A stretch of 32,356 bases of DNA, taken from IMG/VR virus record IMGVR_UViG_3300030503_000302, positions 1 through 32,356 of that record, one strand, 5' to 3'. A program made the translations under genes and the position numbers. This document shows, piece by piece, positions 3,348 through 29,578 of the stretch. The stretch comes from a virus. Each line of letters begins with the position of its first letter. Within the stretch, counting starts at the first letter, position 1. The notes under the pieces were generated by a model that had not been told where the DNA came from, did no database searches, and saw nothing but the letters and a program-made list of their open reading frames with translations.

Positions 3348-4322
3348 ATGGCATCCTCACCAAATTATTTAGTGTACGTCCAGAGCTACGGTACTCCAGG
3401 TACCACGACTCCTCTTGTTTCTGTTACCGCTCCGATTCCTGAAGACGTTATGTTTGACATGGAATCGACTTATGAGATGAAGCTGCCGCAAGGTCCTGAC
3501 AAAGGTTTAGCCGGTACTGCGTTAGCTGCATTGGGTCTGAAGTTAACTGTTCAAGCCCTCACCGCTCAACTGTGGTCTGGTTCAACAACTAGTGACCTGA
3601 CCATTGCTTTGGAGTTTCACACCGAGACTGATCCTGTGGCTGACGTCAGAACACCAATCGTTAATCTAATGAAGTTGGTAACACCTAGTGTCTCCTCAAC
3701 TGGTGGTATTCTTCAGGCGCCGGGTCCTCAACTGGATCTCGCACAGCTTTTGCAAATCGCGAAAGATATCGTATCGCAAGGACAGGGAATATTCACCTCA
3801 GTTGGTTCTGGTGTAGGTTCGACTTCAGGTTATTCTTCCTCGACTGTCCTTAACGGGCTGGGTTCCACTTCGACATCAACCCAGCAGATCACGCAGTCGA
3901 CAATGGTTAACTCAAATCTGCAAACCGCGGATGGGACGAATAGTACGGTGTTTCAATCACCCACCCAGAACGCCTCGAAAGGTACAGCAGCATATTGGAA
4001 ATCACAGATATCGAATCGCATCTCAATTCAAATCGGCAACTACATGTTATTCGACAATGTGGTGATCACGAGGTTAAGTTCGACTTTTATGTCGAATCTT
4101 GACGCGACCACAGGACTACCACACCACGTAAAGGTTGGCTTGTCCTTTCGCCCAATGTTCATGCTCACCCAGTCCGATCTCGATAACGTTTACCTGAACC
4201 CGGGCCAGAATTACACACCTGGTAACAACAACTATGGCTTCTCGATGACCGGGTTGTCTGGTGTTGGTAATGCTTCACTGGCCCCCTCAGGTTCTCTGAG
4301 TCCTGGCGAGACGCTGGGCTAA
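3348..4322 (+). CDS. Baseplate tail-tube protein, gp48/gp54-like
   Basis: The 324-residue product has the features of the proteins that link the baseplate hub to the first tail-tube ring. The N-terminus (NYLVYVQSYG) leads into a beta-rich region. A Ser/Thr/Gly-rich linker spans about 150-200. The C-terminal domain contains IGNYMLFDNVVITRLSSTF, then a GLPHHVKVGLSF strand and LTQSDLDNVYL, a pattern typical of T4 gp48/gp54 and related tube-initiator proteins. It sits between the tail muramidase and the gp53-like wedge gene, which fits. AAGGAA precedes the ATG. Assignment to gp48 or gp54 individually is not possible; only one such gene is present here. Confidence 0.6.
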   Translation: MASSPNYLVYVQSYGTPGTTTPLVSVTAPIPEDVMFDMESTYEMKLPQGPDKGLAGTALAALGLKLTVQALTAQLWSGSTTSDLTIALEFHTETDPVADVRTPIVNLMKLVTPSVSSTGGILQAPGPQLDLAQLLQIAKDIVSQGQGIFTSVGSGVGSTSGYSSSTVLNGLGSTSTSTQQITQSTMVNSNLQTADGTNSTVFQSPTQNASKGTAAYWKSQISNRISIQIGNYMLFDNVVITRLSSTFMSNLDATTGLPHHVKVGLSFRPMFMLTQSDLDNVYLNPGQNYTPGNNNYGFSMTGLSGVGNASLAPSGSLSPGETLG

Positions 4323-4338: not shown

Positions 4339-5487
4339 ATGACCAAGTCACAACTATACACCTTCCTCCTAACTTATCAGCAAGAGAATTCTAGTGGCCG
4401 CGCCTGGATTGAGAGAGCTCTCTCAAAGTTTCCTAATGTTCTAAAGACATTGAGGATTAATCTAGGAGATGAATTCGGCACCATTGAAGTCTATCAATTC
4501 CTGAAGCCTCAAGAAGGTCTGTGTCAACTCTGTAGTAAGCCAACGAAGTTCAGATCATTCTCTTCGGGTTTCAAGAAGTTCTGCAGTACCCAATGTGCTA
4601 ATGAGAGGAACTTTGGTCCCAAAGAAGAATTAAATCTTGAACCAAAAGTTAAGGTCGAAGGGTTCGATGACATTGTTGATCCCTCAGTGGTGCCCAAAGA
4701 GAAGGTTGAAAAACCCAATAAAAAGGTAGTTTCGGCCGTAGTCGAAAAACCACCTGTTTCTATAGAGAAAACCGTCCTTAAGAACTCTGGTGGGACTATG
4801 TACGATCCGCCTAAAAAACCTACTATTGCACCTGAGTTAGAGCAGCCCAGAGTAAGGCTATTAGCCGATCTTAAACAGTTCGGGATTCGTCGTTCCAATC
4901 CGCCTAAAAGAATCACACAAGGACATTGGGACAGGATCAAAGAGAGTGAGGAATTGGTTGCCAGGTCAGAGGCCGAACTTCAGGATCGTAAAGCTAAGAG
5001 AGAAGCTAGAAAGGAAGAACTTAAAGTCGAACCACAGATCGAGCCTATCAAGAATGACAAGGTCGAAATTCATGGAGATCGGACTTTTGAACTTCAAGGT
5101 ATGGAATCTAATGCTTTGTCTGTCCTCCTCTATGAGATGGGAATTCCGGTGCATCTGTTCGATACTTCGAGGAAGGAAGTCTCGTACTTCAACAAGGCTA
5201 TTGGCAAACAGAAGAACTACGTTCCTAATCTCGTGCTAGACAATAAGATTGTGATAATGGCTAAGGGTCCTTCAGCTCTTAAGAATGAACGACTGGTGCA
5301 AGAGATAAGAGATAAATGTACGGGTGTTATCTGGAGTGGTCGTCATTTCCTCCTGCTTGTCATGGACAACTATGGTAACATCTTATCCGCTAACGTCGAT
5401 CAGGTTTCAGACATGGAAACAACTCCTTTAAGCAAGGAAGCTGTTCTTCAGTTGGCTGGGATGATTCGAGAATTACTAAACAGGTGA
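4339..5487 (+). CDS. Zinc-finger protein with degenerate PD-(D/E)XK-like nuclease domain (probable inactivated homing endonuclease)
   Basis: The 382-residue protein is not an obvious structural protein. Residues 20-95 hold a helical segment then a Cys4 finger (C62, C65, C82, C86; CQLC..KFCSTQC), of the kind found at the N-terminus of phage-encoded Vsr/Hef-like homing endonucleases. A charged coiled-coil or linker region rich in Lys/Glu covers 95-245. Residues 251-345 follow the layout of the matching nuclease domain: GMES (E256) for the usual GYE, then YVPNLVL and IVIMAKG where active relatives have YPD...IIEVK. The acidic residues are replaced by N297 and M307 while K309 is kept, so cleavage activity is doubtful. 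The gene lies 16 bases after the tube protein and 4 bases before the gp53-like gene, has an intact frame and its own ribosome site (AAAGG). The family reading is from memory of motifs and is moderate. Confidence 0.5.
   Translation: MTKSQLYTFLLTYQQENSSGRAWIERALSKFPNVLKTLRINLGDEFGTIEVYQFLKPQEGLCQLCSKPTKFRSFSSGFKKFCSTQCANERNFGPKEELNLEPKVKVEGFDDIVDPSVVPKEKVEKPNKKVVSAVVEKPPVSIEKTVLKNSGGTMYDPPKKPTIAPELEQPRVRLLADLKQFGIRRSNPPKRITQGHWDRIKESEELVARSEAELQDRKAKREARKEELKVEPQIEPIKNDKVEIHGDRTFELQGMESNALSVLLYEMGIPVHLFDTSRKEVSYFNKAIGKQKNYVPNLVLDNKIVIMAKGPSALKNERLVQEIRDKCTGVIWSGRHFLLLVMDNYGNILSANVDQVSDMETTPLSKEAVLQLAGMIRELLNR
4409..4426. repeat. 18-bp perfect palindrome inside a coding region
   Basis: TTGAGAGAGCTCTCTCAA equals its own reverse complement. 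It falls in codons of the zinc-finger/nuclease-like gene and codes for an ordinary helix segment. There is no U-run, so it is not a standard terminator. Confidence 0.6.
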
Positions 5488-5491
5488 GATA

Positions 5492-5842
5492 ATGAGTGTA
5501 GCAGGATATACAGGGGATTTCGATTATTCGAAGTACACGCCGTTGGACAACACCTTGGATCAGTACGATGTCTTTCAATCTGGTTACAAGAATATCCGTT
5601 TCAATATCCAACAGCAGCAACAGATTCAACTCGATAACTCGAATGCCTACAATCTTCCAGGCATTGCATATCAGGCTTATGGTGATACATCGCTGTGGTG
5701 GGCTATCATGGTTTACAATGGACTATCAGATCCCTTGACAGACATTCAACCAGGAATTGTTTTGTTGCTGCCTGCCAAGTCGACGATTCAATCCTACATC
5801 TCAAGACAGTCTTCGTCGTCGTCTTCGACCATGACCGTCTAA
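5492..5842 (+). CDS. Baseplate wedge protein, gp53-like (LysM-like fold)
   Basis: The 116-residue product carries the hallmark of the gp53 wedge family: LPGIAYQAYGDTSLWWAIMVYNGLSDPLTDIQPGIVLLLP. The YGD...LWW.I...N...DP...I..G..L..P pattern is shared with LysM-like baseplate proteins. A Ser-rich tail ends the protein. In T4, gp53 helps join wedges around the hub. The start ATG is preceded by AGGTGAGATA, and the gene begins 4 bases after the previous stop. Its own stop codon overlaps the ribosome site of the next gene (TAAGGAGG), which suggests coupled translation with the hub protein. Confidence 0.8.
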   Translation: MSVAGYTGDFDYSKYTPLDNTLDQYDVFQSGYKNIRFNIQQQQQIQLDNSNAYNLPGIAYQAYGDTSLWWAIMVYNGLSDPLTDIQPGIVLLLPAKSTIQSYISRQSSSSSSTMTV

Positions 5843-7840: not shown

Positions 7841-7908
7841 GATGAGTCGTAGGAGAAAAGACCGACGGGTCCTGAGTTGCCAACACAACTCTATCCTACG
7901 TGCTCATC
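7841..7908 (+). ncRNA. Candidate three-way-junction RNA upstream of the homing endonuclease
   Basis: The strand folds by eye into a closed three-way junction. The outer stem pairs 7841-7846 with 7903-7908 and 7848-7854 with 7894-7900, giving 13 Watson-Crick pairs around a 1x2 internal loop. Inside it are a 4-bp hairpin (7860-7863 with 7868-7871, loop GACG) and a 6-bp hairpin (7874-7879 with 7886-7891, loop CCAACA). Junction strands are GAAAA, CT and TA. It ends 14 bases before the GGAG ribosome site of the GIY-YIG gene. There is no U-tract, so it is not a simple terminator. It could be a leader that controls endonuclease expression or a remnant of a structured mobile element. No known class is recognised. 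Confidence 0.5.
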
Positions 7909-7935
7909 CTCCTCAACTTGTTGGAGTTGTCAAAG

Positions 7936-8904
7936 ATGTCTGTATGTTTAGAAGAGTCTGCCCACGGTGAGCAGTTGGTGAAGATGCTTAATGCCTGGGG
8001 TCCAAAGATTCTAAAATCCAAAAGTATCAAGTTTGATCGCACCGTACATGCTCGAGCGTGGAATTTGCAGGTTAAGTGCGAAAGTGACTATCATGCCGGT
8101 CTGCGTACTACCATCTATTCTCTAGAGAAAATCTTCTATGTCTATGTGCTTATGGATCCACTGAAACCTGGACCATTCACATACAGCTTCTTTGGAAGGA
8201 AATACACCTTTCCGTTCGAGGTATTCTACGTAGGTAAAGGTAAAGGAGATCGGGTAACCGACCACGGTAGGTGGGCAAGGACACATCCAAAGCCTCAGAA
8301 GAGACAACATAAGCTTAACCGAATCCGTAAGTTACACCGATTAGGACTAGAGCCCATCGAGAAAAAGATCTCTATGCATGAGGAAGAATGTCTAGCCTTG
8401 GTTAAAGAGATGCTTCTTATAGAGAAGATAGGTAGAAGATTAACCAAGGATGGTCCGCTGACTAATCTAACGCCTGGTGGTGAGGGCGGAGCCGGTGCTA
8501 CCAGAGGTCATCCCGTCAGTGAGATGACTAGAGAAAAATTGAGAGTTAGCCAAACTGGGCGAAAGTTAAGCGAGGCACATAAAGCGAAGATTAGTACCAA
8601 TTCGCCCAGACGAGGTAAGAAGAATTCGCCGGAACACTCTAAAGCTATAGCAGAATCAAATAGTAGGCGCAAGGGCATCTCCCATAGGACACTAAGATCT
8701 AAAGAAACCAGAGCAAGGTTGTCTGCCATTCATAAAGGCAAAAAGAAACCTCTGTCGGTTTCTTTGGCAATCGCAGAATCTAACAGGCGTCGCAAGGGTG
8801 AGAAGAGAGGACCTATGGATCCCATAGCGATAGCTAAAAGCGTAGAGACAAGAAGGCGTAATAGGGAACTAAGAGATAAAGGATTATTATCATGCCGACA
8901 ATAA
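7936..8904 (+). CDS. GIY-YIG homing endonuclease with NUMOD3-type DNA-binding repeats
   Basis: The 322-residue product is a free-standing homing endonuclease. The GIY-YIG core starts at YVYVLMDP (about 68-75), has a short insertion (KPGPFTYSFFGRKYTF), then FYVGKGKGDRVTDH (about 97-110) with the conserved Arg, and a Glu in the LVKEMLLIEKIGRR helix (about 155-168). TNLTPGGEGG follows. The C-terminus holds several Lys/Arg-rich NUMOD3-like repeats (SPEHSKAIAESNSRRKG, SKETRARLSAIHKGKK and similar) that bind DNA. I chose ATG 7936 because GGAG lies 9 bases upstream; a GTG at 7900 falls inside the RNA stem. Codon use and an Arg/Lys-rich composition differ from the neighbouring virion genes. Its end overlaps the gp25-like start by 13 bases, so it supplies the upstream context for translation of an essential gene. 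Confidence 0.88.
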   Translation: MSVCLEESAHGEQLVKMLNAWGPKILKSKSIKFDRTVHARAWNLQVKCESDYHAGLRTTIYSLEKIFYVYVLMDPLKPGPFTYSFFGRKYTFPFEVFYVGKGKGDRVTDHGRWARTHPKPQKRQHKLNRIRKLHRLGLEPIEKKISMHEEECLALVKEMLLIEKIGRRLTKDGPLTNLTPGGEGGAGATRGHPVSEMTREKLRVSQTGRKLSEAHKAKISTNSPRRGKKNSPEHSKAIAESNSRRKGISHRTLRSKETRARLSAIHKGKKKPLSVSLAIAESNRRRKGEKRGPMDPIAIAKSVETRRRNRELRDKGLLSCRQ

Positions 8905-9320: not shown

Positions 9321-11108
9321 ATGTCCTCAGTAACAACGATTTTTACTCTAAGCGATCTATCACAGGATTTCGACCAATTCGTAACCCAGTTCCAAACACA
9401 ACTGCAAGCTCAACCTTCGTGGATTGGTAACCTGACAACCCAGACATCCGAGACGTTGATCGAATACGTCTCGACTGTCGGGACGTTTGCGCAGGGTAGA
9501 ATTACCCGAGCATATGAAGATGCTTATGCAGAGACGGCGCAGTCGAATGACGCCATTCTTTCCATCGCGCAGATGCAGGGCCTGAGACTTTCGAGATTCC
9601 TCCCGGCATCGATGGACGTCGTGTTGAATTCGACTACAACGGTGTCCTTGCCACCTCTGACCCAGTTCCAATGTGGTGGTTCATACTTCTACAACAATGT
9701 GGCATTGACTATCGAGTCGGGAGTTCCTCTAGACACCACGTTGTATGAAGGTCAGATTTACTTCTACTCAATGTCTGGTCTGGGAACAGAGCGTCAACTT
9801 TGGGTTGCCTCACAGGACTCTTTCGTTATCGCAGACCAGGATGTGTGGGTGCAAGTGAATGGTTCGTATATTCCAAAGTCGTATGGCAACCTCTGGAACT
9901 ACGATGGTCAACCTGCTTATGCGGACATGACGTTGAGTGATGGTCGTATGTTTATCCAGTGGGGGAACCTCGGCGGAACGAATGGACAGTTCGGGACGAT
10001 CCCTCAGGTCAATGATACTGTGCTTGTTAGTTACCCAGTGACGCAGGGGGCAAACGGTAACAGTTTGCAAACTGCTGGGTCACAGATAACATGTTCGGGC
10101 TTCCTGACAATCACTGGTGTGTCTTCGGAGAATCCTTCCGGGGGTGCGAACCAGACTAACATCGTTGCCTACAAGAATGTGGCCAGCGGAGCATTTGGTA
10201 CCTACAGTTCTGCTGTTACCAAATCGCAGTATCAGGCGTTGGTTGCTACGTTCCCCGGCATAGTCGATGCAGTGACGCAGGCTCAAAGAGAGATTGATCC
10301 AGGTGACTTAAGGTGGATGAATGTTATTCGGGTGTCCGCTCTAACGACCTCGACGTGGACGCAGGCACAGATTCAGAGCTTCCTTACGTACTGCCAGCAG
10401 GTCACGATGTATGCACCGTATTTCCTTTGGCAGGATGCAATTGCAGTTCCCAATGCGGTGGATGTTGATATCTACATCTACAACTCTGCTATTCCTACCC
10501 AGGTGCAGGCGAATGCAACTACGGCTATAACGAATCTGTTTGCTCCACGTCCTGGTATTCTGATGACGAACTTCTACCCCTCGGACATCGAGCAGGTGAT
10601 CTTTAACTCGAATACAGGTCTGGTCGACTACGTGACTATCAACGAGCCAACTGGACCGATGATTGTAACTTCTCCGACCAGTCCACAGATTACCTACACG
10701 ATCGTTCCTGGTGCAGGCGTACTGGGTCCCAGCGTTTATGCATATTCGATCTCGACTACGTTGACAACTGGTGCAGTAGGGTTCCCGCAGAACTGGGTAT
10801 TCCCTCAGATCATCTCGGGATCAGATAACGCTATCACACTGACATGGCTAGCAGTGTATCAAGCAGCATCATACTCTGTCTGGGGTCGCTCTGCTGAAGG
10901 GACTTTGGGATTGATTGCCACCGTCACTTCACCTACCCTCACTTACGAAGACGTGGGATCGATAACTCCTGTTGGTCCTTTACCCAATAGTTCGGGATTT
11001 CCCATCCAGTACAATTCACTCTCTTCTCTGACAGTTAATGTATTCTACTCCGCACGTCAACAGGTTAATCCTGGATCCGACCCAACGCGTCTACTCGGAG
11101 GCGCCTGA
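9321..11108 (+). CDS. Baseplate wedge protein, gp6/gpJ-like, with a fibronectin-III-like insertion
   Basis: The 595-residue product belongs to the Baseplate_J group. The N-terminal helical region (ETLIEYVSTVGTFAQGRITRAYEDAYAETAQ) and the ILSIAQMQGLRLSR motif are typical, as are the middle block around SKSQYQALVATFPGIVDAVTQAQREIDPG-like residues and the C-terminal wing with VDVDIYIYNSAIPTQVQANATTAITNLF. Near 456-550 a segment reads GPSVYAYSISTT...AITLTWLAVYQAASYSVWGR...GLIATVTSPTLTYEDVGS, which fits an Fn3/Ig-like fold inserted close to the C-terminus. Two copies per wedge form the iris of the baseplate in T4. AGGAAGG precedes the ATG, and the stop overlaps the next start (TGATG). Confidence 0.8.
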   Translation: MSSVTTIFTLSDLSQDFDQFVTQFQTQLQAQPSWIGNLTTQTSETLIEYVSTVGTFAQGRITRAYEDAYAETAQSNDAILSIAQMQGLRLSRFLPASMDVVLNSTTTVSLPPLTQFQCGGSYFYNNVALTIESGVPLDTTLYEGQIYFYSMSGLGTERQLWVASQDSFVIADQDVWVQVNGSYIPKSYGNLWNYDGQPAYADMTLSDGRMFIQWGNLGGTNGQFGTIPQVNDTVLVSYPVTQGANGNSLQTAGSQITCSGFLTITGVSSENPSGGANQTNIVAYKNVASGAFGTYSSAVTKSQYQALVATFPGIVDAVTQAQREIDPGDLRWMNVIRVSALTTSTWTQAQIQSFLTYCQQVTMYAPYFLWQDAIAVPNAVDVDIYIYNSAIPTQVQANATTAITNLFAPRPGILMTNFYPSDIEQVIFNSNTGLVDYVTINEPTGPMIVTSPTSPQITYTIVPGAGVLGPSVYAYSISTTLTTGAVGFPQNWVFPQIISGSDNAITLTWLAVYQAASYSVWGRSAEGTLGLIATVTSPTLTYEDVGSITPVGPLPNSSGFPIQYNSLSSLTVNVFYSARQQVNPGSDPTRLLGGA

Positions 11109-18517: not shown

Positions 18518-19591
18518 TTATTTACCTATCTTACCCTTGACGTCTTCCAGTACTTTCTTACGCTCAGGGCTCAGGTTCTTCCCTGCTCTGTTGATATAAA
18601 AATTCAACGAAGATGATGCCTTACCCGTATCACCCTTATGACTCTTCTTCAACCACGAGGCAATCTCATCTGCGGATCCCTCCTTGAACAAACCTTCAGG
18701 TGGGTGCTTCTTGGTCTTGACATCTGAACTCCATTTATCGGCCACCATGATATGCTTGAATGCACTATCAAGGATTGACGTAGCGTATGCAGAGTTCGAT
18801 ATCGGGTTGACTTCCTCAAAGTTGTTATCGAGTGAGTCCGATGTCGAATCACCCTTTACCTTCTTTGGGGCTATAGGAGTCTCTTCCAGGTTGTTGATCG
18901 CGGTAGAACCAGCTTCAGTCTCCTCAGGTTCTTCCACACTAGACATTCTTTGGTTGGGATCCTGCACCGAGTTCAGAATGGAAGCCTGAGCCAACCTGTT
19001 TCCAATCTTCATTAGAGAGCCCATTGTAACCCTTGCATTCAACTTCGGTGGGTTATCAACAAATTGAGGATCCTGCTCTGGATCCTTTTGACGATTGTCC
19101 GGTACTTCCTTCAAGAGGTTTACCATACCATCATCCTTGTTGTGACCAGGTGGCAAAGCATAAATCGACTGCTCATTCATTGCCCGGATACTACTAGTCG
19201 TTGTCGTCGAGTCAGATGTCGAAGTATCAGAAGTATCAGTTGATGTCTCCTGATCCCCGTACTGATTCTTCAAAGCTTCCTTGGATTGGTGCAGACGTTC
19301 CTTGTCTGCACCCTGCAGATTACGACCATTGCGATTGATATAGGAATCGAGTTTCTTCTCAGCAGTTCCATAGTCAGGCGAATGATTCTTGACTATCTGC
19401 GCTATACCCGACGGACTTTTGTCGAACGTACCCTTGGGTAGAACCTGACCGGGCTTCCTCGGCTTATGGATTTGTTTGTCCTCCATCTCATGCTGCCAAT
19501 TCATGTTCGGGTTATTATTGCTTGGGTTGTTACTCCCAATGCTATCATCGGCTTCTATCAACTGAGCCTTAATCATGTCCGCGATAATCAT
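18518..19591 (-). CDS. Protein with two DUF3175-like domains
   Basis: The product (357 residues from the ATG at 19591) contains two copies of one small helical domain. Copy 1, at about 51-108, reads LPKGTFDKSPSGIAQIVK...YINRNGRNLQGADKERL. Copy 2, at about 298-357, reads PPEGLFKEGSADEIASWLKKS...FYINRAGKNLSPERKKVL. The YINRAGKNL core matches the DUF3175 family, whose function is unknown and which is usually a single-domain protein. A 180-residue polar linker with a Thr/Ser-rich tract separates them. An earlier in-frame TTG at 19627 is possible, but GATAAGAGAGTGAATGAG before ATG 19591 makes the latter the better start, and it avoids more overlap with the outer spanin gene. Confidence 0.6.
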   Translation of the reverse strand: MIIADMIKAQLIEADDSIGSNNPSNNNPNMNWQHEMEDKQIHKPRKPGQVLPKGTFDKSPSGIAQIVKNHSPDYGTAEKKLDSYINRNGRNLQGADKERLHQSKEALKNQYGDQETSTDTSDTSTSDSTTTTSSIRAMNEQSIYALPPGHNKDDGMVNLLKEVPDNRQKDPEQDPQFVDNPPKLNARVTMGSLMKIGNRLAQASILNSVQDPNQRMSSVEEPEETEAGSTAINNLEETPIAPKKVKGDSTSDSLDNNFEEVNPISNSAYATSILDSAFKHIMVADKWSSDVKTKKHPPEGLFKEGSADEIASWLKKSHKGDTGKASSSLNFYINRAGKNLSPERKKVLEDVKGKIGK

Positions 19592-19607
19592 CTCATTCAC
19601 TCTCTTA

Positions 19608-19784
19608 TCAGGTCCCCGTTTTATCAATCTTGATCTTCTGACACTCTTTGTACATGCTGATGATATGTACGGTATAGTCCTTCAGAGTCTCCTGATCTCC
19701 CATGCTAGGAACATCCGGACACCCTGAGGATCGGGTAGCACATGAGGCGAGTAGCAGGGTGAATATCGCTATAACTAATCTCAT
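19608..19784 (-). CDS. Outer-membrane spanin lipoprotein (Rz1-like)
   Basis: This 58-residue gene is short enough to be missed. The product begins MRLVIAIFTLLLASC, a signal peptide ending in a lipobox (LLAS before C15), so mature lipoprotein would start at Cys15. Further Cys occur at 22 and 47. It overlaps the stop of the inner-spanin gene by ATGA (19781-19784), the coupling expected for an Rz/Rz1 pair. In Gram-negative hosts the o-spanin sits in the outer membrane and joins the i-spanin through the periplasm to fuse membranes at lysis. The mature part is short and not notably proline-rich, unlike lambda Rz1, but o-spanins are very diverse. Confidence 0.8.
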   Translation of the reverse strand: MRLVIAIFTLLLASCATRSSGCPDVPSMGDQETLKDYTVHIISMYKECQKIKIDKTGT

Positions 19785-21942: not shown

Positions 21943-24900
21943 TTAGGTGGCCATCGCTAGGCCGAGTGTGAATATCATGTAAACGGCGCTGATTGCATCG
22001 TATTTGACGCCAATCATGTCAATACCCGAAGCTGATAACGTGGGCGCAGTTCCACCCGAGTACAATGAACCTGTGGGCCATGTAATATTTGTCCCACCAT
22101 TTGTTATACGAAGATATACTACCTGCCCAGTACTCGTCCCCAAAGTATTCGTGAATGCAATCGTAGTAGCCGCGGACACGGTGAATGCAAATTCTGAGTA
22201 CAACCCTAAATCGAGTGTTAACGTTCCAGAAGTCGAACCGATATTGTCTATCGCATAACTTTGTGAAGTAGTTTGCAATCTGCGGGTCAACGCTGCGGGT
22301 TGAACTGCAATGACACCGACAGTGTTGGATATGACAGAAGTCGCAACTGTTTCCGTAGCCAACACTACAGACTGCGGAAGCACTAGACTTACGCCACTTC
22401 CGTTCGTCAAAGTGACTGTGAAAGTGTTAGTACTAGTATTCGTCGTCGTGTTATAAACCGTCCAGGACCCGACTGTAGGAACTGTAACTACCACACTCGC
22501 CGTCAAGGTACCTGTGAAAATTATAACCGGTACCGAATACTGGGTAGCTGTGAGTGTAACATTTGATCCCGTCAAAGCTACCGAAGAAGAGCCCTGATCC
22601 GCATTGTAGACAAAAGCTGTTGTCGCCAACTGAGTTGTATCTGTACCTGTTGATGCCGTAGGCGCTGTTGGAGTTCCCGTAAATGCAGGCGACGCCAGAG
22701 GTGCATAAGTTCCCGTAGTTGCAGCTTGAACAAAAGCAGTGGTTGCAAGCTGGGTCGTGTTCGTACCCGTAGTTGCCGTAGGAGCCGTAGGAACACCGGT
22801 CAACGCCGGATTAGCTAAGGGCGCGAATGAGGTCGCAACGAATGCCGTTGTTGCCACTTGAGTTGTGCTCGTTCCAGCCGTTGCCGTAGGTGCTGCTGGT
22901 ACTCCGGTGAATGTCGGAGAAGCCAGTGTTGCGATCCCGGTTACTGCGCCTGTGCTTCCATTCACTGAAGAAACACCAGTGATGATAGGATTCACAGGAA
23001 GCACACCAGCAGATCCATCCGAGATATAAGGCGATGTTGCGGTTCCCGACTGCGGCACCACGGCGGTCGCACCCGTACCATTCGACAACGTGACCGAGAA
23101 CGCTCCACTTGTTGCGTTGTAGAAGATCCACTGACCCGAAGTCGGCACCGTTACGGTGACGTTTGCGGTCAGAGTGCCTGTGAAGATAATAACCGGTACC
23201 GAATACTGGGCCGCGGACAGCGTAACGTTTGCTGCGGCCAATGCAACCGTTGCAGATCCTTGTGTCGCCCTGTACACATAAGCGTCTGTCGCAATCTGCA
23301 CCGAGTTGTCACCCGCTGCAGCAGTTGGAGCTTGTGGTGTCCCCGTAAATACAGGTGAAGCCACAAGAGCACCGCCGGCGCCGCTAATGTCTGTGTTCGT
23401 CAGCGTCACCGTTCCCGAACGTGTGTTGAACGTATTGACAACAGTTGAGCCACCGCCTGCTATGGTAACCATACCTGCTGTCGAATTCGCCACCACCGGC
23501 AACGTGTTTTCCGTTGCTTGCGGGATCACAAGATTCTGCCCAGCGCCATTACCCAATGTTACAGTGAATGCTCCGGTGCAAAGGTTAAGAACTTCCCATG
23601 CACCAGAGCCTGGCATCGTAATAATGATGTTAGCTGTTAAAGTTCCTGTAAATTCCAAAATCTCCGCACTGTACTGGGCTGCCGTCAATACTAGTGTGGT
23701 TGCTCCGCCAGTTAAACTGATTACCGCTGTGCCTTGAGTCGCCGCATAGACGTACGCCGTGGTTGCTACGTCTGTGTTATTGACACCTATTGTCGGCGTC
23801 GGAGCAACCACGGTTCCCGTGAACGTCGGACTAGCCGCCGGTGCTCCACCCACTCCTGTTACGTCTGCCAACGTCAGTACCACAGAGCCCGTTCTACCGA
23901 ATACCGAAACAACGTTTGCCGATAGTACACCAGTTCCGGAAATCGTGACGCCCGTACCTTGCGAAACGATACCTGCCGTTGAACCTGTTGCTGCGGAAAC
24001 TGCAATGTCGCCCGAAGAGTTAACCGTTAGCCCGGAACCATTCGGAACAATCACACCACCGAGCGTTGTTGACGTGGCTGGCGTTAAGGTGAACGCAGAG
24101 ATGTTTGAGTTGACGATACCCAGAGTGCCCAGAGATATGACGCTCGAGCTTTCGTTATCGAGAGCCACATAAGTAGCACCACTTCCGTTACTCAACGTTA
24201 CATTAAACGTCCCGCCGGATGACGTAGTGTTATTGTAGAACGACCAGATACCACTCGTCGGCAACGTCAAAGTCAGATTGGCAGTAAGACTTCCCGTCAA
24301 CTCAATAACAGTTGTACCATATTGCGATGCTGGAACGGTATAAGGTGAAGTCAACCCACTGACGTTAATCGTAGTCGTATTTAACATCGCGTTGCTAACG
24401 AACGCCGTCGAAGCTGCAGCCGTGGAGCTCGTACCTTCCGCAGCTGTCGGAACCGTAATCGAACCACCAGTGAAACTATTTGCTGCCGTCCACGTATTAG
24501 CCGAAGCAACAAGGGCACCACCCGCCCCAGTTATATCCCCACTCACCAGAGTAACCGCACCCGAGCGAGTATTGAACGAAGTAACAACACCCGTTCCCAA
24601 ACCTAACACATCTTGAACGTAAGCAGTCGTCGCTATGTTTGTTGAGTTATCCGTAGGCGATTGCGTAACTGCGGTGCCCGTCGAAGGAATAACACCCAAC
24701 GTAAGATTACTCAACACCTGAATCGAAGTGCCCTGAGCCAGCACGTAGGTAGCGGTACCTCCATTGCCCAACGTCAGAGTAAATGAAGTTGAACCTGTAG
24801 TGGAGTTGTGGAATGTCCATTGCCCTGTGATAGGAATCGTTACCGCGATACTAGCAGTTAACGCCCCTGTGAAATAAATAACAGGGAAACTTAGTTCTGC

Positions 24901-27900
24901 GGTCGTCAAATTCAATGAGCTAGATCCACCAGCAAGACTAACGGTCGTCGATCCAGTCAGCGTCGTTCCCACGACGAATGCAGTTGTCGCCAACTGAGTG
25001 GTTGAAGTTCCATTGGCCGCTGTCGGAGCTGTTGGAGTTCCCGTAAATGCAGGCGACGCCAACAGCGCACCACCAACTCCCGTAACGTCTGAAGCTTGCA
25101 GTGTTACAACGCCGACCCGCGTGTTGAATGAGTTGACGACATTCGATCCACTACCTAGCAATGTATGGACGAACGAAGTAGTAGCCAGGTTGTTCGAGTT
25201 ATCCAAAGACGCTGTGGTAATACCCGAGGTGATGGCAGGTAAAACTCCAAGGTTTGTATCGCTAAACAGGTGGACCGAGGATCCTTCTTGAAGGACAAAT
25301 GTTGCTCCCGAAGTCACGCCGTTCGACAATGTAAGAGTAAAGCTTCCTGCATTAGTCGTTTCGTTGTAGAAGATCCATTGACCCGGGAACGGCAGGGTAA
25401 CGATAACATTTGCCGTCAGGTTACCAACGAAAATCACCGTATTGTAGTTAGCGTTCGTGCCCAGAGAGATATTCGAGGAACTAACGGTGACGCTTATAGA
25501 AGCCGCCAGCGTATTTTGTACAAATCCCGTCGTTGCCAACTGCGTCGTATCGGTGCCCACCGAAGCTGTAGGAGCAGTTGGAGTTCCCGTGAATGCTGGA
25601 GAGGCTAGAGGAGCGGCGCCAGATATATCCGTTACCGACAATGTGACTGCACCCGTTCTCCCCGCTACAGTTGTGACATTGGCCGAAAGTAAACCACTCG
25701 TTTGAACAGTCAACCCCGAACCAACGATTACCCCACCAAGAGTTGTCGTCGTTGCGGGTTGAACACCACCAGACGCAACCGCTGTAGTAACGAATGCTGT
25801 CGTCGCTATCTGAGTTGTATTCGTTCCCGGTGACGCCGTTGGTGCAACAGGAACACCAGTGAATGACGGAGAGGCAAGAGGAGCTCCACCAGCGCCCGTG
25901 ACGTCTGCAAGTGTTAAAGTGACCACGCCTATCCGGGTGTTGAACGAGGTGACTGCTCCGCTGGACAGCGAGGCTTGAACAAAAGCTGTTGTCGCTATCT
26001 TCGTGGTGTTGTCACCCGTCGACGGTGTAGTCGAGGTCGGTACTCCCGTGAATGCAGGAGAATTCAGAAGTGCACCACCAGCTCCAGTAATATCCGTGCT
26101 GTTGAGCGTGACTGCCCCATTCCGACCGTTAAAGGTCGTAACTCCCGCATTCGTCGTAATCGCAGCTTGAACAAATGCGGTTGTTGCCAACTGAGTTGTA
26201 TTCGTCCCAGCAGTAGCTGTTGGTGCTGTCGGCGTCCCAGTTAGTGCAGGAGAATTCAGAGGCGCATAACTCACCAGGTTATTCTGAACGTACGCCGTGG
26301 TGGCCAGGCTCGTATTATTTGTACTAGTCGAAGGCGTCGGGGCGGTGGGTGTTCCCGTAAATGCAGGACTAGCCAGCAAAGCTCCACCGACTCCTGTGAC
26401 ATCGGCAGCCTGAAATACGACTGCGCCGGTGCGAGTATTGAAGGAAGTAACACCCGTAGCCAACGTTGCTATAACTTCCTGAACGTATGCAGTCGAGGCT
26501 GCATTGTTCGAATCGTCCGAAGTTGCTACGGTCGGTACAGTAATTGTTCCACCGGTGAAACTATTTGTTCCCGTGTAGTTGTTATTCCCGGAAAGCGTAT
26601 TGTTGTTCCCCGCTATAACCGCACCAAGATTTACTATGTCAGAGAGTTGCAGGGTGACAGCCCCGATACGACCATTGAACGAAGTGATAACCTGAGTTGG
26701 ATCAACACTTAGAGTTCCACCGACAGTTATCGCCAAACCGGATCCAGGCTTGACTGCACCATTTGCCGAAGTAGTTGCGGCGGGCAGGTCTCCTCCGACC
26801 AATGAACGGAACGTCGGCTGATTTGCAGAGCCCGTTGTCGGCCCAGCCCAAATCAGATTTGCATTCTGACTGTTCAGCGTCGCAGTCAGAGTCCCTGTTG
26901 TCGTCACCGGAGAACCAGACACCGTGAAAATCGGAGGCATCGCCAACCCGACTTCCGTAACCGTACCACCCGTTGCACCAGAAGCTGCGATGGTGATGGT
27001 CGAACCTGAAGTCGTAACGGTGACGCCTGTACCTTCGGCAATCGTTACTGCACCTGCTGTTGTGTTTATCGAAGTTACGACATCCGTGTCATTGATAGAA
27101 AGGTTGCCCGAACCATCAACGACCAATCCACCGGAAGGTGGAACAATTACCCCACCAAGAGTTGTCGTCGTTGCTATGACCAAAGGCGTTGTTGAGATTA
27201 CGCCATCATCCGTGATAGCTATTCCGGATCCAGCAATTACGCCACCCAAGGTCGAATCAGTAGCAGGAGGCAGGTCATAATCGAGTTGCCCATTACCTTG
27301 AACCGACAGCGTAGGACCAACGATGATACCGCCCAACGAACTAGTCGTTGCCGCCGCCAAGGTATAAGGTACTACTGCGAGCGTGCCATCTGATTGAACA
27401 GTCAACCCCGAACCAACGATTACCCCACCAAGAGTTGTCGTCGTTGCGGGATTGAGTTGCAGCGCATTAGCACTAAGTGTTCCATCTCCAGCAATCGTCA
27501 GGTTCGATCCGACCTTTATACCACCCAATGTCTGCGAACTTGCAATCGGTAAGACGTAGGGCGTCGGCGTATTAATCAGGTCGTCATAGTTGCCTGTCGT
27601 CGCTACGGTTGCCAAGCCAGTGATATCTGAAGCCGTGATAACGACTGCCCCTGTCTGACCATTCACCGAAGTAACAGGAGGAGTTATGGATGCTGCAGCA
27701 ATCGTGATCGTATCAAGACCGACGTCTTGCGTTATCGTGATGTTAGCGCCTGCAGATATCGACTTCAGGAGGGCGATGGTTGTCCCACCCGAACCATCAT
27801 AGTTCACCAGAGAAGTTCCGGAGCCCGTCGATTGAACTGCGGTTAAATTCCCGCCACCGCCCGTATTATTCGTGGCATTGATCGTTACGCTGTTACCGTC

Positions 27901-28890
27901 TGTCGCGAAGTTAACATTCGCACCAGCAACAAGTTCTTTGATTTGCGCAACCTGTGTGACTGAGCCATCGTTAGCAACGAGAGTAGTACCTCCAGCCTCT
28001 GGTGAAGATTGAACAGCTTGCACGTAGCTCGGAATAGATAGCGCTATATCCGTGCCATTGTCCGTCAACGTGATATCACCGGTGCTAACCAGATTCTTTA
28101 TCAGGATATTGCCGGTTGTCGCTCCGCTATCGCTTACCAAGGACAACGAGGTGGAAGAAGTAGTCTCTGCCGGGAGAGCTTGAACAACAACGGCTCCCGT
28201 TGACCCACCAGTTTGTCCATTCACGCTGTGGATGATATCGAGAGCCGAAGGACTTTCTGCTACCCATTGACTAATCGAGTTCGAGAAGCGCAGGAGATAA
28301 CCATCAATCGCCGGACCTTCCGAAATGCTAACGTCCGGAAGATTGCGAAGGTATACATTTACGTTGTGGTTCGAATCAACACCAACGCCGTTCACCGTCC
28401 AAACAGCCGAAGCCAGTTCAGGTGCAAGATCCGGAATATCAGTAATCTGCAACTCGACATTGCCAGAAGCATCTGGATCAACGCCATTGACCGAATAGAC
28501 TCCTGCTGCGACATCAAACGATTGAATGACACCGTAGAAGCCATTCAGAACTGCATCAACTACTGTACCATTGATTGGTAAACCATTGACGAATACCGAG
28601 GTCGTTGTCTGAGATCCACCGTAATCCACATCCTCGGTTGAGTTGTAGATGACGGTGATACCCGCGCCATTTATTATAGCTTGCGTGATAGGTTCATATG
28701 GGATGGCAAGTTTCCACCCGCCGTTAGAACCGACATAGAGACCGGGCACATACGAACCCAAGCTCGATTGCAGAACAACAACTTCATTTTGCGGGTTAGC
28801 GTCGAGAGAGGTAACCCAAGGAACAACGTAAGGCTCTGACTGAGCACCATTGACCAACGTTACTTGATAATAAAAGATCGGGTCCGCCAT
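21943..28890 (-). CDS. Giant modular tail fibre (2,315 residues)
   Basis: This 6.9-kb gene takes up more than a fifth of the window. The N-terminal 230 residues differ from the repeats and probably attach to the virion. Residues about 400-640 hold a run of TTTTLGGVIVGSGLTVQSDG units. From about 720 on there are about ten blocks of the form V.SFNTR.GAVTL...DVTG, then SPAFTGTPTAPTA..GT.TTQLATTAFVQ, a spacer module common in phage fibres. Six beta domains of about 90 residues are interleaved near 1130, 1313, 1503, 1717, 1877 and 2098 (QYS.PVIIFTGTLTANV.VT.P.SG.W.FYN). The C-terminal 115 residues, from SGTLTLDLG to WPTGSLYSGGTAPTLSASGIDMIGV, are a widespread fibre tip domain. The upstream ribosome site (TAGAGAC) is weak. 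Confidence 0.88.
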   Translation of the reverse strand: MADPIFYYQVTLVNGAQSEPYVVPWVTSLDANPQNEVVVLQSSLGSYVPGLYVGSNGGWKLAIPYEPITQAIINGAGITVIYNSTEDVDYGGSQTTTSVFVNGLPINGTVVDAVLNGFYGVIQSFDVAAGVYSVNGVDPDASGNVELQITDIPDLAPELASAVWTVNGVGVDSNHNVNVYLRNLPDVSISEGPAIDGYLLRFSNSISQWVAESPSALDIIHSVNGQTGGSTGAVVVQALPAETTSSTSLSLVSDSGATTGNILIKNLVSTGDITLTDNGTDIALSIPSYVQAVQSSPEAGGTTLVANDGSVTQVAQIKELVAGANVNFATDGNSVTINATNNTGGGGNLTAVQSTGSGTSLVNYDGSGGTTIALLKSISAGANITITQDVGLDTITIAAASITPPVTSVNGQTGAVVITASDITGLATVATTGNYDDLINTPTPYVLPIASSQTLGGIKVGSNLTIAGDGTLSANALQLNPATTTTLGGVIVGSGLTVQSDGTLAVVPYTLAAATTSSLGGIIVGPTLSVQGNGQLDYDLPPATDSTLGGVIAGSGIAITDDGVISTTPLVIATTTTLGGVIVPPSGGLVVDGSGNLSINDTDVVTSINTTAGAVTIAEGTGVTVTTSGSTITIAASGATGGTVTEVGLAMPPIFTVSGSPVTTTGTLTATLNSQNANLIWAGPTTGSANQPTFRSLVGGDLPAATTSANGAVKPGSGLAITVGGTLSVDPTQVITSFNGRIGAVTLQLSDIVNLGAVIAGNNNTLSGNNNYTGTNSFTGGTITVPTVATSDDSNNAASTAYVQEVIATLATGVTSFNTRTGAVVFQAADVTGVGGALLASPAFTGTPTAPTPSTSTNNTSLATTAYVQNNLVSYAPLNSPALTGTPTAPTATAGTNTTQLATTAFVQAAITTNAGVTTFNGRNGAVTLNSTDITGAGGALLNSPAFTGVPTSTTPSTGDNTTKIATTAFVQASLSSGAVTSFNTRIGVVTLTLADVTGAGGAPLASPSFTGVPVAPTASPGTNTTQIATTAFVTTAVASGGVQPATTTTLGGVIVGSGLTVQTSGLLSANVTTVAGRTGAVTLSVTDISGAAPLASPAFTGTPTAPTASVGTDTTQLATTGFVQNTLAASISVTVSSSNISLGTNANYNTVIFVGNLTANVIVTLPFPGQWIFYNETTNAGSFTLTLSNGVTSGATFVLQEGSSVHLFSDTNLGVLPAITSGITTASLDNSNNLATTSFVHTLLGSGSNVVNSFNTRVGVVTLQASDVTGVGGALLASPAFTGTPTAPTAANGTSTTQLATTAFVVGTTLTGSTTVSLAGGSSSLNLTTAELSFPVIYFTGALTASIAVTIPITGQWTFHNSTTGSTSFTLTLGNGGTATYVLAQGTSIQVLSNLTLGVIPSTGTAVTQSPTDNSTNIATTAYVQDVLGLGTGVVTSFNTRSGAVTLVSGDITGAGGALVASANTWTAANSFTGGSITVPTAAEGTSSTAAASTAFVSNAMLNTTTINVSGLTSPYTVPASQYGTTVIELTGSLTANLTLTLPTSGIWSFYNNTTSSGGTFNVTLSNGSGATYVALDNESSSVISLGTLGIVNSNISAFTLTPATSTTLGGVIVPNGSGLTVNSSGDIAVSAATGSTAGIVSQGTGVTISGTGVLSANVVSVFGRTGSVVLTLADVTGVGGAPAASPTFTGTVVAPTPTIGVNNTDVATTAYVYAATQGTAVISLTGGATTLVLTAAQYSAEILEFTGTLTANIIITMPGSGAWEVLNLCTGAFTVTLGNGAGQNLVIPQATENTLPVVANSTAGMVTIAGGGSTVVNTFNTRSGTVTLTNTDISGAGGALVASPVFTGTPQAPTAAAGDNSVQIATDAYVYRATQGSATVALAAANVTLSAAQYSVPVIIFTGTLTANVTVTVPTSGQWIFYNATSGAFSVTLSNGTGATAVVPQSGTATSPYISDGSAGVLPVNPIITGVSSVNGSTGAVTGIATLASPTFTGVPAAPTATAGTSTTQVATTAFVATSFAPLANPALTGVPTAPTATTGTNTTQLATTAFVQAATTGTYAPLASPAFTGTPTAPTASTGTDTTQLATTAFVYNADQGSSSVALTGSNVTLTATQYSVPVIIFTGTLTASVVVTVPTVGSWTVYNTTTNTSTNTFTVTLTNGSGVSLVLPQSVVLATETVATSVISNTVGVIAVQPAALTRRLQTTSQSYAIDNIGSTSGTLTLDLGLYSEFAFTVSAATTIAFTNTLGTSTGQVVYLRITNGGTNITWPTGSLYSGGTAPTLSASGIDMIGVKYDAISAVYMIFTLGLAMAT
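25702..25758. repeat. 57-bp perfect direct repeat, copy A (within giant fibre)
   Basis: All 57 bases are identical to 27394-27450, in the same orientation. The unit encodes one LGGVIVGSGLTVQ module. Other modules of the same protein family are far more diverged at DNA level. Confidence 0.85.
27394..27450. repeat. 57-bp perfect direct repeat, copy B (within giant fibre)
   Basis: This is the second copy of the unit at 25702-25758, about 1.7 kb away in the same gene and in the same reading frame. Confidence 0.85.
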
Positions 28891-28924: not shown

Positions 28925-29578
28925 TTAGGGCCAAACGAGTACAGAGTTGACCTTGTTCAAAACTGGTAGGCGCTGAGGAACGGTCACTGTTGAACCATTT
29001 ATCACTCGTGTCGCCTGCGTGAATGAATCTGAATCCGCTAAGGCATTCATATGGTTGTCGTCCCAGAACCATCCAGCGGAAAGGAATGCATCCACAGGTT
29101 GGGCAACAAGATCGGGATTCAAGACGATTCGATTATCACCATACGCCGCCTGACTGTATGCCGTATAGTTCGACCTGAATGTCAGGTCGAATGCACCGCG
29201 TCCACGAAAATTCCAACCATCGCCTGAGGACGTTGGACCATTCCCATCCCGATTTGCGTACACAAGATTCGCTAGCTTCTGCGGATTGTTGATGTAGTTC
29301 GGTGCATACGCATAGTTCGTATGTGTTGGATCTAGAGTAAATCTTGAGGGCCACTCTGTTACCAATCTTTCAGGCGTCGTATAGTCTAGATTCTCCGACC
29401 AGGATGTATATTGCTGCGTTTCAAAGAACGACTGCGCCACAAAGTAGCGCAAGCGTATTGCTGATTGGTCGATACCGTAACGAGAAGCACACGCATTGAT
29501 GCCATCTGCTAGTGCTTGGGCATTCGTCAAGTTTGAGTTGAGGCCAAGAATCTGATTTGCTGTAACTTGAAATGACAT
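28925..29578 (-). CDS. Endolysin, glycoside hydrolase family 19 (chitinase-like)
   Basis: The 217-residue protein matches the GH19 endolysin pattern, which cuts the glycan chain of peptidoglycan. An N-terminal helix bundle leads to FVAQSFFETQQYTSWSENLDY with E53 and E62 as the likely catalytic pair. YINNPQKLANLVYANRDGNG and SGDGWNFRGRGAFDLTFRSNY then form the substrate groove. In many relatives the last motif is YRGRGLIQLTGR.NY, so the IQ-to-FD change is a mild departure. No signal peptide is seen, so release depends on the holin encoded upstream. AGTAGGAATAATC precedes the ATG. The gene ends 35 bases before the giant fibre start. Confidence 0.88.
   Translation of the reverse strand: MSFQVTANQILGLNSNLTNAQALADGINACASRYGIDQSAIRLRYFVAQSFFETQQYTSWSENLDYTTPERLVTEWPSRFTLDPTHTNYAYAPNYINNPQKLANLVYANRDGNGPTSSGDGWNFRGRGAFDLTFRSNYTAYSQAAYGDNRIVLNPDLVAQPVDAFLSAGWFWDDNHMNALADSDSFTQATRVINGSTVTVPQRLPVLNKVNSVLVWP

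Follow-up and report, generated by a model that had tools for sequence, protein, structure and literature searches.

A probable dead, still-folded descendant of a homing nuclease inserted in the baseplate operon of a jumbo phage

Background

Phage nucleases carrying the DUF7487 domain (PF24308), among them gp297 of Pseudomonas phage PaBG, the 'HJR family nuclease' of Vibrio phage Va1 and the phrog_3339/phrog_15137 proteins, are encoded by freestanding genes found beside core genes, the major capsid gene being one example. The domain is attached in these genes to fingers, treble-clef repeats or HTH-like repeats, and Pfam lists its function as unknown. I-Bth0305I, a Vsr-like homing endonuclease with an EDxHD motif, is also built from DNA-binding modules and a Vsr-like nuclease. 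The usual expectation is that homing genes die and are then deleted. The C-terminal pseudo-nuclease of FANCM (with FAAP24), in the eukaryotic XPF family, is a dead restriction-like domain kept as a DNA-binding part. Among enzymes of other nuclease folds, T4 I-TevIII is a homing nuclease inactivated by deletion (PMC2988022), WhiA is a homing-nuclease descendant turned transcription factor (PMC3781837), and I-TevI represses a promoter (PMC10448857, PMC3943268).

The gene described here lies in a 32,356-base virus record, a genome fragment that is referred to below as the window. Its product differs from I-TevIII, WhiA and I-TevI in that a PD-(D/E)XK domain would have been inactivated by point changes. 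We consider it likely that the gene is a dead, still-folded and inserted descendant of a homing nuclease; a homing-nuclease origin had been proposed in an earlier reading of the sequence alone, and the insertion, the domain profile and the fold presented below all support it.

The inserted gene and its operon

The gene and its immediate surroundings consist of the following features.

3348..4322, plus strand: upstream neighbour, a PmgG-like tail-operon gene (phrog_1114, E 9e-36)
4339..5487, plus strand: probable homing-endonuclease-derived gene, 382 aa, comprising a finger, a linker and a C-terminal PD-(D/E)XK pseudo-nuclease domain
5482..5488, plus strand: AGGTGAG, resembling a ribosome site for the gp53-like gene and overlapping the TGA stop of the inserted gene (5485-5487)
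5492..5842, plus strand: downstream neighbour, a gp53-like baseplate wedge gene (Pfam Phage_gp53, phrog_15542/7145)

The frame is complete and begins with ATG. It is separated from the upstream stop by 16 nt, is preceded by the ribosome site AAAGG, and ends 4 nt before the gp53-like ATG, so that the full-length frame, ribosome site and tight spacing described in the sequence-only reading were all found. Of the wedge genes which that reading placed on both sides, only the downstream one is recognised as such; the upstream neighbour is a tail-operon gene that matches the PmgG-like family. Downstream the order is gp53-like, hub-like, spike-like, GIY-YIG homing gene, gp25-like and gp6-like wedge gene, and the same operon is present in Burkholderia phages BcepSauron and BcepSaruman and in Achromobacter phage Motura, all of which exceed 220 kb.

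In 10 relative loci the gp53-like gene comes immediately after the PmgG-like gene, with no gene between them, and since the site is empty in these loci the gene at 4339-5487 is an insertion in the baseplate operon. The closest empty-site locus, L010, is 73% identical in the gp53- and hub-like proteins, and there the gp53-like gene has another ribosome site, a GGAG sequence. The gene is carried only by the window and two near-identical IMG/VR contigs. A scan for further contigs with the gp53-like gene gave no additional carrier, and tblastn against phages and plasmids, together with pattern scans of IMG/VR and GTDB genomes, gave no close relatives beyond the two sister contigs. No homologue was found at this position in the other operon relatives examined, where the site is empty. 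The gene is thus inserted beside conserved genes at a site that is empty in relatives, as is expected of a freestanding homing gene.

Atypical codon usage was considered as a sign of recent arrival and was rejected, as the codon usage of the gene is ordinary; its GC content is only slightly low (0.434 vs 0.485). Elsewhere in the window, three genes on the minus strand were noted: a threonine-rich protein of 2,315 aa (21943-28890) that matches many tail-fibre families, a 369-aa protein (18518-19627) with a C-terminal DUF3175 domain (Pfam 3.6e-17), which is odd for a phage, and a GH19 chitinase-like domain (28925-29578) that is probably lytic.

Other homing genes in the operon

In these jumbo phages the baseplate operon is a hot spot for homing genes. 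An intact-looking GIY-YIG/NUMOD3 homing gene is located at 7900-8904 of the window, between the spike-like and gp25-like genes. A 43%-identical GIY-YIG homologue lies on the other side of gp25 in L010 (3001-4059), and the Motura homologue (L005:10051-10932) is on the same side of gp25 as in the window.

The interval that separates the gp6-like gene from the one after it is longer by approximately 127 bases in the sister contigs (L008:10878-11017, also L009); the window lacks these bases at position 11108. They encode a 41-aa zinc-finger stub (MRRWHFSNC...CPHCGKKG...HHFNNCKEA) resembling the tail of a phage homing endonuclease. SNPs are dense just downstream of the stub (18 and 13 per 100 bases) and then fade, in the manner of a co-conversion tract. 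From the 41-residue stub it would seem that dead homing genes can undergo deletion in this operon.

The finger, the linker and the nuclease domain

Three regions were distinguished in the 382-aa protein.

4522..4596, plus strand: putative Cys4 zinc-finger region, residues 62-86 (CxxC...FCSxxC), with weak matches to phrog_3339 and phrog_1271
4612..5055, plus strand: Lys/Glu-rich linker, residues 92-239, of low model confidence and lacking EKYGV-type repeats
5056..5484, plus strand: C-terminal pseudo-nuclease domain, residues 240-382 (HMM, AlphaFold2, VIA-align 2)

The cysteines of the finger, which had been recognized from the sequence earlier, are C62, C65, C82 and C86. The two families that it weakly matches are phage homing/HNH endonuclease families, and several DUF7487 nucleases have this finger in almost the same place (approximately residues 59-83). 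The finger would be expected to bind zinc, and the protein DNA. When the linker region was searched alone only chance matches were obtained, and a pattern count gave no EKYGV-type repeats in it, compared to 3-6 in several finger-bearing relatives.

Profile comparison places the C-terminal domain in DUF7487, members of which were gathered from phages and IMG/VR (loci L024-L029 and L030-L128). An HMM built from nine relatives, with the query excluded, aligned residues 250-347 with 28.2 bits (E 2e-6), and since the best of 2,000 shuffles reached 7.5 bits the resemblance to these nucleases is beyond chance. The Pfam DUF7487 model scored residues 240-382 at 17.2 bits (E 0.005), below its 27-bit gathering cut-off. 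An hhalign comparison was discarded as circular, its profile already including the query, and an NCBIfam search returned nothing. The C-terminal domain is alignable with the DUF7487 nucleases over approximately 100 residues, although identity does not exceed about 30%, and the query differs from them in having N and M for D and E, one residue fewer and no EKYGV repeats. In a tree, the end branch of the query measured 1.88 against a median of 0.35, and it was still five times the median without the catalytic columns; as the query is long-branched and has no supported sister, its deep placement was given up.

The fold was modelled with AlphaFold2. A prediction of the domain guided by homologues (41 aligned rows) gave a pLDDT of 91.8 and a pTM of 0.84; a single-sequence prediction of the whole protein (pLDDT 41.9) was not used. 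With VIA-align 2 the best match was I-Bth0305I (Z 7.8, 97/97 residues, rmsd 3.5), followed by TnsA (Z 7.6 and 7.5) and Vsr (7.0), with archaeal Hjc enzymes near the top; all of these Z-scores are below 8 and modest taken alone. Foldseek by itself was indecisive (best E 1.6e-3). Sequence profile and model together settle on a predicted restriction-like PD-(D/E)XK fold of the Vsr/TnsA/Hjc-like kind, which is the outcome that the sequence-only reading had anticipated from a structure search. I-Bth0305I, the best structural neighbour, is an active enzyme with its own motif and no detectable sequence match to the query, in which the acidic ligands are gone. FANCM is a weak structural match (Z 5.1) with no sequence relation to it.

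Models of TnsA and of phage endonuclease I are likewise matched by DUF7487 relatives. The profile aligns D55/E65/K67 of T7 endonuclease I to the motif, but with an E of 0.03 this is consistent only. We assign DUF7487 to the PD-(D/E)XK nuclease domains; its E, D, E and K are conserved, and it is similar to Vsr, TnsA and I-Bth0305I.

Loss of the active site

The four positions that correspond to the conserved E, D, E and K were compared with those of 54 distinct relatives, 48 of which cover the position of E256.

5104..5106, plus strand: E256 (GAA), glutamate of the first helix, retained (E in 48/48 relatives covering the position)
5227..5229, plus strand: N297 (AAT), in place of the invariant D of the PD motif (D in 54/54)
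5257..5259, plus strand: M307 (ATG), in place of the invariant E of ExK (E in 54/54)
5263..5265, plus strand: K309 (AAG), lysine of ExK, retained (K in 54/54)

These are the replacements and retained residues named in the sequence-only reading. Since 27 of the 54 are recognizable by a motif involving neither the D nor the E, recruitment bias does not account for the invariance of these two residues. The same N and M codons are found in two other assemblies, three in total, and so cannot be a sequencing error of one contig. The query is also one residue short between the positions of N297 and M307, and the signature residues Y255, V308, S310 and T313 near the active site are eroded. The protein therefore has the ExK lysine and the helix glutamate of an active enzyme and lacks the catalytic D and D/E. 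Because both acidic ligands are lost and two-metal chemistry is established for these enzymes (PMC3943268), DNA cleavage by the protein is very unlikely, and the nuclease is almost certainly dead.

Retention of the frame

The query keeps 8 of the 15 near-invariant columns, the lowest of 49 rows (the next lowest keeps 74%), and 17 of the 19 core hydrophobic columns, which is inside the family range. When the erosion is read as a neutral clock, the frame should have acquired about 8-14 stops, and none is present. The probability of no stop under neutral erosion is 0.0003-0.02 depending on the threshold; it rises to 0.44 under the most stringent choice of columns once the catalytic pair is left out, so that the death may have been recent. 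Retention of the hydrophobic core is by itself compatible with neutrality (P 0.33). The kept core and the lack of a stop despite erosion of the active site argue against long neutral decay.

The gp53-like gene is probably translationally coupled to the inserted frame, judging from the overlap of the stop with the gp53 ribosome site. As the stop lies inside that site, the frame might stay open through polarity or coupling even if the protein served no purpose. It had been proposed that a decayed parasite should carry frameshifts; this argument is only in part valid, given the probable hold of gp53 coupling on the frame, but the erosion arithmetic and the collapsed homing-nuclease stub elsewhere in the operon of the sister contigs lend it some weight. 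Among the three carriers the gene shows just three synonymous changes and one conservative change, which decides nothing on selection. Between locus L002, in one sister contig, and the window, three synonymous differences fall within a 10-base stretch of the gene (4503-4512), with almost none for kilobases otherwise; it is possible that this cluster is a small conversion tract or a strain mixture.

Origin and possible role

The course of events that best explains these observations would start with a freestanding finger-plus-DUF7487 homing endonuclease whose gene entered a phage related to BcepSauron and Motura at the junction of the PmgG-like and gp53-like genes. Catalysis would then have been lost at D297 (to N) and E307 (to M), the two acidic metal ligands. 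The protein may still be made from the late tail operon and may still fold, and it could still bind DNA through the finger and the surface of the nuclease domain without cutting. Any benefit would come from occupying the site, for example through protection of the insertion region, competition for it, or a damping of operon expression. That the gene is kept by such a non-catalytic DNA-binding role is a tentative proposal, somewhat short of an even chance. The more specific proposal, that a PD-(D/E)XK homing endonuclease has been domesticated as a non-cutting, finger-guided DNA binder that keeps competing homing enzymes out of the baseplate region or regulates the operon, we regard as rather unlikely.

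About as likely as retention for DNA binding, and likewise a little below even, is that the gene is a functionless passenger. The frame would then be held open by gp53 coupling, and the gene would either spread by co-conversion with the GIY-YIG gene 2.4 kb downstream or have died recently. The overlap of the stop with the gp53 ribosome site, at a distance of 4 nt from the gp53 ATG, and the intact-looking GIY-YIG/NUMOD3 gene are in keeping with this explanation, as neighbouring homing genes have been proposed to mobilise together (PMC10448857). It is also consistent with the homing-gene stub and its fading SNP gradient in the sister contigs, and with the confinement of the gene to one lineage. 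However, the coupling is itself read from the sequence, and it would account for the missing stops but not for the core hydrophobic pattern or the confidently predicted fold.

Three other explanations are all improbable. A still-active nuclease with a rearranged metal site, in which another acid such as D301 or E280 stands in for N297 and M307, would fit the retention of E256 and K309, and PD-(D/E)XK enzymes are known to relocate acidic residues; the loss of both strictly conserved acids and the erosion of Y255, V308, S310 and T313 nevertheless make it a slim prospect. Slightly slimmer is the chance that the protein is the non-cutting half of a dimer, paired with an active relative whose gene lies in the unsequenced part of the genome. 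Relatives of the PD-(D/E)XK fold often dimerise, and the contig is a 32-kb fragment compared to genomes of 220-260 kb in its relatives, but there was no DUF7487 match in four records of operon relatives with lengths of 221-264 kb (BcepSauron, BcepSaruman, Motura and an IMG/VR record of 231 kb). Least probable is a baseplate protein with a structural or assembly role, such as the assembly factor or scaffold that the sequence-only reading had suggested. The position inside the operon would fit it, but all other relatives examined assemble without the gene, the finger and predicted nuclease fold are DNA-related, the linker is of low complexity, and no tail-protein match was found.

Conclusions

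Inactive and re-used homing enzymes are already known from I-TevIII, WhiA and I-TevI, and the present PD-(D/E)XK case is a variant of these. The uncharacterised domain DUF7487 can now be assigned to the Vsr/TnsA/I-Bth0305I-like nucleases. With its predicted fold, its finger and its reading frame kept and both acidic ligands lost, the gene provides a concrete case for asking whether phages purposely keep dead nucleases.
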